From Actinomycetota bacterium (GTDB lineage: Bacteria > Actinomycetota > Actinomycetes > Actinomycetales > Dermatophilaceae), in contig JAIUNK010000017.1 in assembly GCA_020161845.1 (NCBI GenBank), positions 29,474-93,473 of the forward strand: DNA of 64,000 nt, read 5' to 3'. Below, piece by piece: positions 11,257-62,669 of the stretch. The notes under the pieces are model-generated. The model saw only the letters and a program-made list of their open reading frames with translations, had not been told where the DNA came from and searched no databases. A program made the translations under genes and the position numbers. Numbering within the stretch: position 1 is the stretch's first letter; the number at the start of each line of letters is the position of its first letter.

Positions 11257-11296
11257 CGTGAGCCGACGATGAGGGAACCTTCATCGTCGGCTCACG
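11257..11296. promoter_or_regulatory. Perfect 16-bp inverted repeat upstream of the two-component operon
   Basis: Arms 11257-11272 and 11281-11296 are exact reverse complements (CGTGAGCCGACGATGA) around an 8-base loop. It lies 33 bases upstream of the first gene's start at 11223. There is no T-run, so an intrinsic terminator is unlikely. An operator for the co-encoded OmpR-family regulator, or a leader hairpin, fits the position. Confidence 0.6.
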
Positions 11297-16181: not shown

Positions 16182-16217
16182 AGAGATATGCACATGCTAA
16201 TGTATGTGCATATCTCT
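16182..16217. promoter_or_regulatory. Perfect 14-bp palindromic operator over the vapB start
   Basis: Arms AGAGATATGCACAT (16182-16195) and its exact reverse complement (16204-16217) flank GCTAATGT. The right arm includes the ATG of the antitoxin gene. Ribbon-helix-helix antitoxins autorepress by binding such palindromes. A diverged copy precedes the second module at 17956-17987. Confidence 0.75.
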
Positions 16218-20938: not shown

Positions 20939-21333
20939 TTGCCAGGCCCTGCAAGCCCCCGTCATCGACTATCCACCTGGCCTTTTCATCACCGCGCGCC
21001 CCGACCGGCCCCGGTGGCACTCGGACGTCCAACCGTAAAGCCCACGCCAGGCTCCGCCCCTACCGCGACAGATCCGGGGGAAATCGACCGCTCGCCGCTC
21101 ACCCAATCCGCACGCAAAGAGACTGACGGCGGCCCGGCACGAGCCGAGGCGCGGGCGCAGCGCGACCGGGAATGCCCGAACGGGGCCAAACGAAGAATTC
21201 CGGGGAGACGCCAAGGCCGTCGGGTCGCCCCACGCGACCCGACGGCCTGGCAATCCTGCAACCCGTCGACCTGGCACTGGTTCACCGCACCACACGCCCC
21301 ACGCGTGCGCCAGGTTCGTCGAGGAGGAAGAGC

Positions 21334-21492: not shown

Positions 21493-21545
21493 CGAGAGCC
21501 TCCTGGTGACGGGGCATCCGCTCGCTCATCACCAGGAGGCTCTCG
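21493..21545. terminator. 17-bp perfect stem-loop
   Basis: CGAGAGCCTCCTGGTGA (21493-21509) pairs exactly with 21529-21545 around a 19-base loop. It lies downstream of the 32-residue ORF. No T-run, so it could be a terminator, an RNA-stabilising hairpin or a protein-binding palindrome. Confidence 0.5.
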
Positions 21546-55592: not shown

Positions 55593-55690
55593 GGTCGTGC
55601 GAGCGCGCTGTCATCCGCGGGCCTGCCTGATCGCCAACCGCGAGTTATCCACAGGCGCGTAGGCGCCAACTCCCCGAGTTATCCACAACC

Positions 55691-55752
55691 CGACCGTTCG
55701 TCACCTGCATCTTTAGCACCATGGTGCCAAAAGCGCAGGTCACGAACGGTCG
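55691..55752. repeat. 62-bp palindromic repeat, family 1 copy 2
   Basis: Same core and ends as 53776-53837 (CGACCGTTCGTCACCTGC ... GCAGGTCACGAACGGTCG, centre AGCACCATGGTGCC). It is preceded by two TTATCCACA sequences (55645-55653 and 55679-55687). It lies 48 bases beyond the 3' end of the DUF559 gene. Confidence 0.93.
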
Positions 55753-55800: not shown

Positions 55801-56688
55801 CTACGCGGATGGCTGTGGCGATTCCGGGGACCAGTGCCGGCTAGCGTGCTCGGTGAAGTAGTCGCGCCACGCTGGGTCGAGGCGGGGTGCCACGCCGCTC
55901 TGATCATTGATGGCGAGCGCCGCCCGGGACAGCACATCACCCGGCGCGCCGTACAGCTCCTCGGCATTGACCACGACGAATCGCCAGCCGAGCAGTTCGC
56001 TGATCCGGCCGCGGCGTACCTCGTCAGCGGCGCGCTGCTCCGGCAGCAAGTGGTGCTTGCCGTCGTATTCCACCGCGACGCGCCACCTTGGGAAGGCGAG
56101 GTCGAGCAGGTACGTGGCGCCCGTCAGCGGGTCCTTCACCGGATGCTGAACCACGAAATCGCGCAGCCCCGCCAGCACCAGCAGCACCCGGACCAGGCTC
56201 TCCGGAAGGGATTGCACGCCGGGGACGGCCAGGGCCAAGGCATCCTCGAAGCGACGCAACCGACCGGGGCGCAGGTCGTACGCCGTAGCCAGATCCGCCC
56301 GTGTGACGGAGCCCTCCTCGACGATGCTGTCGAAAAGGCCGACGAGGTGAGGCAGACGCAGCGTGCGCGCAAGCTCGAGCGCCACCTGCACCGGGTCGGA
56401 CACGCGAAGCCCGGCCAGCCGCCGGACCCGCGCGTCCGGGTGCCCGCGATGCATGGCCAACGGGGCACCCAAGACGCGGCAGCGGCCCGGCAAAACGCTC
56501 ACGTCGATCGCCGCGGAATCGGGCACGCGCAACCCTTGCAGTCGGGCGGCGGTGAAGTGGCTGATGTACGAGCCGGCCGGCGCGATGAGCAGCGCGGCCT
56601 GACAGCGAGTGAGCAGGTCACCGGCGTCCAACGCCGAGGCGTACAGGTCCTGGTGGTAGCGGGCAAGCTCCGGGTCGACGTGACGCAT
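55801..56688 (-). CDS. DUF559 (Vsr-like) nuclease-domain protein
   Basis: The 295-residue protein starts MRHVDPELARYHQDLYASAL, has an N-terminal winged-helix/AbiEi-like region (SHFTAARLQGLRVPDS) and a C-terminal DUF559 domain with LPESLVRVLL, YLLDLAFPRWRVAVEYDGKH and WRFVVVNAEELYG. The D-x8-E-Y-D pattern resembles the PD-(D/E)xK/Vsr nuclease site. It is bracketed by two copies of the 62-bp palindrome (55691-55752 and 56804-56865). Its function is unknown. Confidence 0.85.
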   Translation of the reverse strand: MRHVDPELARYHQDLYASALDAGDLLTRCQAALLIAPAGSYISHFTAARLQGLRVPDSAAIDVSVLPGRCRVLGAPLAMHRGHPDARVRRLAGLRVSDPVQVALELARTLRLPHLVGLFDSIVEEGSVTRADLATAYDLRPGRLRRFEDALALAVPGVQSLPESLVRVLLVLAGLRDFVVQHPVKDPLTGATYLLDLAFPRWRVAVEYDGKHHLLPEQRAADEVRRGRISELLGWRFVVVNAEELYGAPGDVLSRAALAINDQSGVAPRLDPAWRDYFTEHASRHWSPESPQPSA

Positions 56689-56803
56689 GACCCCGACTGT
56701 GGCGTCTCGGCTGCTCGGGTGCGGCGCGACCCGACGCGGCCTGTGGACAACTGCCCGGCCGCGCGGTCGCGCAGGCCTCCTGGCCGCGCGACTATCCACA
56801 GGA

Positions 56804-56865
56804 CGACCGTTCGTCACCTGCCCTTTTGGCACCATGGTGCTATAAGTGCAGGTCGTGAGCGGTCG
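56804..56865. repeat. 62-bp palindromic repeat, family 1 copy 3
   Basis: Same ends and centre (TTTTGGCACCATGGTGC), more diverged in the right arm. It lies 116 bases upstream of the DUF559 start and is preceded by CTATCCACA (56792-56800). The stretch 56866-56946 after it contains short repeats of TCGTTGGGG and no gene. Confidence 0.92.
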
Positions 56866-60164: not shown

Positions 60165-60204
60165 GTGTCGAGTTATCCACCGACTTCGGTGGGGAACTCG
60201 ACAC
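60165..60204. repeat. 40-bp palindromic repeat, family 2 copy A
   Basis: GTGTCGAGTTATCCACCG pairs with CGGTGGGGAACTCGACAC, with two mismatches, around CTTC-type centre bases. TTATCCACA lies just beyond it at 60211-60219. It is 57 bases upstream of the DUF559-type gene. Same length as 61033-61072. Confidence 0.93.
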
Positions 60205-60261
60205 GACGAGTTATCCACAGCCACTTCTGCAGCCGACGCCCGCCCGGACCACCATCGACAG

Positions 60262-61005
60262 ATGCACGCCCGACACCGATTGACCGATGCGGGGCGGGCC
60301 TTGGCCCGGATGCAGGCCGGCGTGCTGTCCACGCCACAGCTCCTGCGACTCGGCTACACCGAGCGCAGCCTGGAGCGGGCGAGCCGCGATTGGACGCGCC
60401 TCGCCCGGGGCGTGTACCTGCTCACCGACCTCACCGGGAAGCCGGCCTGGGAAGCGCTGGTCTGGGCGGGTGTGCTCCTCGGGGGCGAGGGCGCGTGCGC
60501 CGCCGGAACTGCGGCGGAGGCGGTCACCTGGCTCAGCCGCGCCTGTCAGCGCCGCCTCACCACCGAGAAGCGCCTGGTCGCACGGCTTCATGACCGGCCC
60601 ACGGTGCGGCACGCCGCCCTCCTGCGCACGGTGCTGGGGGACATCGGCGCGGGTGCGACCACAGAGCTCGAGCGACGGGTCATGCACGACGTCTTCCGGG
60701 CACACGGACTCCCCGAAGGCAAGCGACAGGTGCGGTCCCGCTCCCGCGGGCGCATCGTCGACATCCTCGTGAAGGAGTACGCGCTGGTCGTCGAGCTGGA
60801 CGGGAAGATCGGGCACGTCGAGGAAGGGGCCTTCCGGGATCGACGGCGAGACAACGCGAACACGATCGGTGGCCGCTGGTCGCTCCGTTACGGCTGGCAC
60901 GAGGCCTGCGGATATCCCTGTGAGTGTGCGATCGAGATCGGTCAGGCCCTTCGTGACCGAGGCTGGCGCGGCGAGTTCCGGACCTGCCGCCGGTGCGCGC
61001 TCTGA
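60262..61005 (+). CDS. AbiEi-like/DUF559 nuclease-domain protein
   Basis: The 247-residue protein starts MHARHRLTDAGRALARMQAG, has an AbiEi-like winged helix (VLSTPQLLRLGYTERSLERA, WTRLARGVYLL) and a C-terminal DUF559-like domain (TTELERRVMHDVFRAHGLPE, GRIVDILVKEYALVVELDGK). It keeps the Asp and E-x-D pattern of the other DUF559 protein (55801-56688) but shares little else with it. It is bracketed by the two 40-bp palindromes of family 2. Function unknown; whether it is an antitoxin, a nuclease or part of a mobile unit cannot be decided from the sequence. Confidence 0.85.
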   Translation: MHARHRLTDAGRALARMQAGVLSTPQLLRLGYTERSLERASRDWTRLARGVYLLTDLTGKPAWEALVWAGVLLGGEGACAAGTAAEAVTWLSRACQRRLTTEKRLVARLHDRPTVRHAALLRTVLGDIGAGATTELERRVMHDVFRAHGLPEGKRQVRSRSRGRIVDILVKEYALVVELDGKIGHVEEGAFRDRRRDNANTIGGRWSLRYGWHEACGYPCECAIEIGQALRDRGWRGEFRTCRRCAL

Positions 61006-61032
61006 CGCATCCGTGGGCCCCGCGCCAACACC

Positions 61033-61072
61033 GTGTCGAGTTCCCCACCGAAGACGGTGGGGAACTCGACAC
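61033..61072. repeat. 40-bp palindromic repeat, family 2 copy B
   Basis: A perfect palindrome with 18-bp arms (GTGTCGAGTTCCCCACCG and its complement) around AAGA. It is 27 bases after the DUF559-type gene stop. The right arm is identical to that of copy A. Confidence 0.95.
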
Positions 61073-62234: not shown

Positions 62235-62669
62235 TCAGAGGCCGAGTGCGTCGGCCCCCTCGGCCGACGAATCCCGCAGGAAGGCGCGGCACCGCTCGTA
62301 CTCGTCCACCTCGCCGATCACCTGCGCCGACCGGGCCAGCGCCGCCAACGCCCGCAGGAAGCCGCGGTTCGGCTCATGCGACCACGGGATCGGGCCTGCG
62401 CCCTTCCACCCGGCCCGGCGCAGGGCATCGAGACCGCGGTGGTAGCCGGTCCTGGCGAAGGCATAGGCCGCCACCGCCCGGGTGGGTTCGCCCACCGCGA
62501 CCAACAGGGCCTGTTCGGCCAGGACCGCCCAGGCCAATGAGCTGCCCGGATGCTGAGCTGCCGCCTCATATGCCGAGGACCCGGCCGCAAGCACGCTTGC
62601 GGCCGGGTCCTGCGGCAAGTGCGTGGCGGGCGGCTGCAACAGGTTGGCCCTGTGCTCGTCGCCAGCCAT
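62235..62669 (-). CDS. DUF3151 protein
   Basis: The 144-residue helical protein contains HPGSSLAWAVLAEQALL, AYAFARTGYHRGLDALRRAG and WKGAGPIPWSHEPNRGFLRA, the DUF3151 pattern. In actinobacteria it is found near fba, as here (4 bases downstream). Function unknown. The downstream gap to relB contains no gene. Confidence 0.93.
   Translation of the reverse strand: MAGDEHRANLLQPPATHLPQDPAASVLAAGSSAYEAAAQHPGSSLAWAVLAEQALLVAVGEPTRAVAAYAFARTGYHRGLDALRRAGWKGAGPIPWSHEPNRGFLRALAALARSAQVIGEVDEYERCRAFLRDSSAEGADALGL

Follow-up and report, generated by a model that had tools for sequence, protein, structure and literature searches.

Does a nuclease gene that lies between two copies of the same palindrome reflect a chance arrangement, or are the gene and its palindromes parts of one genomic element? 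The question is raised by a gene at 60262-61005 in a 64,000-nucleotide stretch of DNA (hereafter the window) from an actinobacterium of the Dermatophilaceae (assembly GCA_020161845.1, contig JAIUNK010000017.1, positions 29,474 to 93,473). A preliminary description noted that this gene and a second DUF559 gene within 6 kb are each enclosed by palindromes of unrelated families, and proposed a real, family-specific association. Our analysis confirms the observation and supports this interpretation, with two corrections concerning the proteins. The relevant features are as follows.

60165-60204 (no strand): left palindrome of the 40-bp family, with one internal mismatch
60210-60220 (+): GTTATCCACAG, a DnaA-box-like motif (containing TTATCCACA) between the left palindrome and the gene
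60262-61005 (+): gene for an AbiEi-type winged helix joined to a predicted EDxHD/Vsr-fold (DUF559) nuclease, lacking a middle segment of about 75-82 residues present in relatives, with catalytic-type residues kept
61033-61072 (no strand): right palindrome of the 40-bp family, with perfect 18-bp arms
55678-55688 (+): box GTTATCCACAA, at a fixed 13-bp offset (from which its coordinates were derived) from the 40-bp core of the 62-bp palindrome; a further GTTATCCACAG lies at 55644
55691-55752 (no strand): 62-bp palindrome on the downstream side of the second gene (a parallel unit of a different family)
55801-56688 (-): second DUF559/MTES_1575-type nuclease gene, not significantly similar to the first
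56791-56801 (+): box ACTATCCACAG, at the same 13-bp offset (coordinates likewise derived), between the start of the second gene and its upstream palindrome
56804-56865 (no strand): 62-bp palindrome on the upstream side of the second gene

The left palindrome of the 40-bp family folds with 17 pairs and one internal mismatch (arms extended to 23 nt are 87% complementary), and the right one has perfect 18-bp arms and a 4-nt loop; folded as single strands they give -17.1 and -24.0 kcal/mol (z -7.5 and -9.6), respectively. A scan of the window yields 10 palindromes of score 12 or more, whereas three first-order Markov shuffles give 0, 0, and 2; other strong palindromes lie at 11257-11296, 16182-16217, 21214-21248, and 21493-21545, and a perfect palindrome with 17-bp arms (AGGACCCGGCCGCAAGC), belonging to neither family, lies at 62576-62611. 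The 40-bp family has 9 copies in the 4.39-Mb genome at up to 3 mismatches (0 for a reversed-pattern control), none of them forming a doublet, and the same pattern has no match in 146 related genomes; no copy of the gene lies within 1.5 kb of the seven copies away from the window's pair. The unrelated 62-bp family has 25 copies in this genome and none in three congeneric genomes (G001, G002, and G003; the window's own genome is G000).

The window's protein (247 aa) has an AbiEi_4 winged helix just over the Pfam cut-off (26 versus 25 bits; 1e-5) and a DUF559-like domain under it (17.3 versus 20.6 bits; 20.6 versus 20.6 in the G003 ortholog). The preliminary description assigned the same domain plan to both genes, but this is only partly shown: the 55801-56688 protein has no Pfam AbiEi hit at E 1, only a weak PADLOC AbiEi match (6e-4) beside a methyl-directed-REase match (1e-7), and the two proteins do not align significantly (BLASTP E 0.21). 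Moreover, compared with 35 relatives, the window's protein lacks about 75-82 residues between winged helix and nuclease, so this copy may be a worn or altered member. Residues at catalytic-type positions (E, D, E, D, H, D, D) are nevertheless kept, and are found in 60-63 of 63 aligned rows. AlphaFold2 models were obtained for the G003 ortholog (pLDDT 92.9, pTM 0.87) and for the window's protein (88.6, pTM 0.65). Foldseek places the predicted nuclease of the G003 model with I-Bth0305I (3r3p, TM by target 0.75) and NGO0050 (3hrl, 0.78) at probability 1.0, although E-values are weak (0.05-0.19, with no hit at E 0.001) and the top-ranked hit is an unrelated mitoribosomal chain.

To determine whether the association is general, relatives were collected from 147 genomes (own included), of which 83 have a match. 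Eighty named loci were taken, 79 labeled Actinomycetota and one, a Gemmataceae MAG, Planctomycetota; they come from one query cluster, are the best 80 of 216 confirmed stretches, and include related loci that are not independent. Of the 75 with both flanks available, palindromes of score 12 or more lie within 200 bp on the left in 33, on the right in 32, and on both sides in 20; at 2199 control positions the corresponding rates are 2.2%, 1.8%, and 0. Left and right flanks are alike in 49 of 75, against 4 of 589 mixed pairs. Among 157 neighbor genes (called by codon-position G+C only, with 41 genes at locus ends dropped), 0 have both palindromes and 1 reaches the similarity limit. Even at score 10, 33 of 75 loci lack a left and 35 of 75 a right palindrome, so the bracket is frequent but not universal at this sensitivity. 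The own genome contains two more relatives (43-44% identity over the nuclease part), one of which (on contig C25) has a strong palindrome on each side, and another genome (G120, contig 54) carries two copies of one nuclease gene with the same palindromes, in opposite orientation about 20 kb apart.

Each gene has its own palindrome, which changes fast while left and right stay matched. A palindrome was found on each side at score 8 in 41 of 80 loci, and 32 of these are similar pairs (null 8 of 400). Left-right similarity within a gene is 34-39 at every level of divergence, whereas between genes it is 7-9 below 60% protein identity, 21 at 60-70% (n = 7), and 33 above 70% (n = 2); at 50-60% identity the palindromes of different genes are already mostly unrelated. 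Palindrome similarity follows protein similarity (Mantel r 0.46, reached by 0 of 2000 permutations; Spearman only 0.15), mainly among close relatives. The matches of two loci (L093 and L111) have lengths that are not multiples of three, so their translated rows are partly out of frame in this comparison and in the protein tree (L111 also in A4), and L093 was flagged in tree construction. The window's gene and its G003 ortholog share one chromosomal place, downstream of an adenylosuccinate-synthetase-like gene (named from its protein sequence), with 53% identity over the shared part, yet have different palindromes with a shared CACCGnnnnCGGTG centre.

A further element, not noted previously, is a motif resembling a DnaA box before the gene. 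GTTATCCACAG within 1 mismatch lies upstream in 32 of 80 loci, never within 300 bp downstream, and only twice in the remaining flanks; with 2 mismatches it is found upstream in 51 of 80 loci, against 4 of 600 random segments (TTATCCACA, 11 upstream versus 1 background; TTGTCCACA, 14 versus 0), leaving 29 of 80 with no box. In the 62-bp family, 14 of 17 copies examined (of 25 found) carry the box at one fixed offset, gene or no gene (background 12 of 1000 segments). In contrast, copies of the 40-bp family and of the G003 family away from the gene carry no box within 2 mismatches.

The arrangement also appears to behave as a unit. Over 112 loci, 62 pairs share both flanks and fall into 14 sites; the gene has the same orientation in 47 pairs (and at 9 of 14 sites), which is the rule, but is inverted in 15 pairs, at 5 of 14 sites. 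Flank homology resumes 8-284 bp from the gene match, at or just outside the palindromes where these are visible (L032/L042, L101). At three of the five sites the flipped genes are sisters in the protein tree (L138/L139, 100/95; L032/L042, 100/94) or in one clade (L101/L123, 100/99); however, L088/L109 sit on an open fork, and at the L120 site same-way genes are not all nearest kin and a flipped and an unflipped gene (L120 and L139) are not sisters, so independent insertion competes with in-place flipping. At a site that Terrabacter sp. Ter38 holds filled, two related genomes, G068 (flanks 90-91% identical) and G041 (84-88%), lack the gene and any palindrome of score 8 matching the family, with gaps of 186 and 497 bp instead of 1189-1199. 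Comparison of these genomes revealed no clean empty-site junction or target duplication; the gap in G068 is unrelated sequence, in which a GTGTGCA...TGCGCAC stretch might be a palindrome remnant. At the window's own locus, G002 (about 650-950 of the extracted locus) has no nuclease gene between the adenylosuccinate-synthetase-like gene and the next gene, but several copies of a short repeat with the core CGCCCAYGGGCG, so no junction can be read. For the G003 ortholog, no plasmid match and one partial phage match (36% over 55%) were found.

Palindrome copies without the gene occur in 3 of 7 genomes searched with a fitting pattern, so dispersal is sporadic. In addition to the seven in the own genome, G003 has 28 copies (reversed control 0), 24 of them gene-less, including 9 doublets in all (7 with starts 73 bp apart, 2 with 62; 6 of 9 inverted as judged by their loops), two of which flank the gene; the doublet left of the gene folds as one long hairpin (z -11.1), a REPIN-like geometry. 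The G003 pattern has 2 copies in G001 and none in G000 and G002, and single copies in G001 and G003 have palindromic arms extended by copy-specific bases (8-13 bp), as if sitting inside older inverted repeats. Phycicoccus sp. Soil802 has the flanking pair plus one copy with no gene near; two Humibacillus genomes and one MAG have only the flanking pair, and a Terrabacter genome one copy, beside the gene.

These features suggest, with little more than even confidence, a small chromosomal element consisting of a palindrome, a DnaA-type box, one nuclease gene, and the same palindrome. We infer that the encoded protein binds its own palindrome through the winged helix and nicks or cuts it with the EDxHD nuclease, probably as an extruded or replication-exposed hairpin; cutting at both palindromes followed by repair would lose the unit, flip it, or seed palindromic copies elsewhere, and would keep left and right alike. 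The DnaA-type box may tie either the act or the expression of the gene to replication. Functionally this would be a REPtron-like (REP/RAYT-like) system with an unrelated enzyme. As in RAYT-REP/REPIN systems (PMC3116915; PMC3733652), a single-copy nuclease gene is flanked by its own palindromes, which in some genomes are also dispersed or form doublets of fixed spacing that fold into one hairpin, and the gene is often inherited in place; the enzyme, however, is not an HUH/Y1 transposase, a DnaA-type box and in-place inversion are present, and there are often only two copies. A broader reading, which remains tentative and slightly less likely than not, is that these are an undescribed class of palindrome-bracketed, replication-linked elements of Actinomycetota, in which the nuclease acts on its own hairpin ends, the box recruits or senses the initiator, the gene is flipped or lost in place, and gene-less palindrome (or palindrome plus box) units and REPIN-like doublets spread in some genomes, as a convergent counterpart of REPIN-RAYT built on a homing-type nuclease.

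Among the alternatives, an autoregulated AbiEi-like defense gene, whose palindromes serve as operators for the winged helix (as may be the case for AbiEi antitoxins) while the nuclease acts on invading DNA and nothing moves, is unlikely but the strongest. The N-terminal part matches AbiEi/AbiGI proteins (Pfam; PADLOC; PDB profiles 9hlo and 6y8q, E about 1e-3), some members have the AbiEi_1 middle domain, and a regulator and its operators would co-diverge; AbiEi antitoxins differ in that here a nuclease domain is carried in the same chain and palindromes lie on both sides. A second matching operator after the stop codon would be unusual, and neither inversion between the palindromes nor gene-less copies are explained. 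A homing-type element, copied by repair into empty sites that its enzyme cuts, is less likely still: the predicted fold is that of the homing endonuclease I-Bth0305I, and presence or absence at one site between related genomes would fit, but the gene-less sites examined (G068, G041, and G002) show no clear copy of the palindrome, and gene-less palindrome copies are again unexplained. EDxHD homing and Vsr endonucleases differ in that here the nuclease is fused to an AbiEi-type winged helix and bracketed by palindromes.

Transcription terminators or insulating hairpins that happen to sit on both sides are improbable. Right palindromes do lie at or just after the stop codon, and several copies in G001 and G003 lie between genes called as convergent, but no T-run terminator was found here (terminators without T-runs would be missed), left-right matching and rapid concerted change are not needed for termination, and neighbor genes lack the pattern. 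Ordinary REPs of a RAYT encoded elsewhere, with the nuclease gene as a chance neighbor, would account for the geometry of the G003 doublets, but the Y1 transposase (PF01797) is found in 0 of 4 genomes of the genus (G000-G003) and 3 of 14 other carriers, and the palindromes track this gene; this explanation is very unlikely and already largely refuted for this genus.

DUF559/AbiEi fusion proteins occur across Actinobacteria; the DUF559 and MTES_1575 families, in or near which the nuclease falls, are defined by the domain only, and we found no described role for the fusion proteins and no link to palindromes in the open PMC literature. Tying each of them to a private palindrome and to a DnaA-type box provides a candidate substrate. 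If the inference holds, REP-like genome repeats arose at least twice, from unrelated nucleases, and the inversions and losses give a natural record of how the enzyme works.
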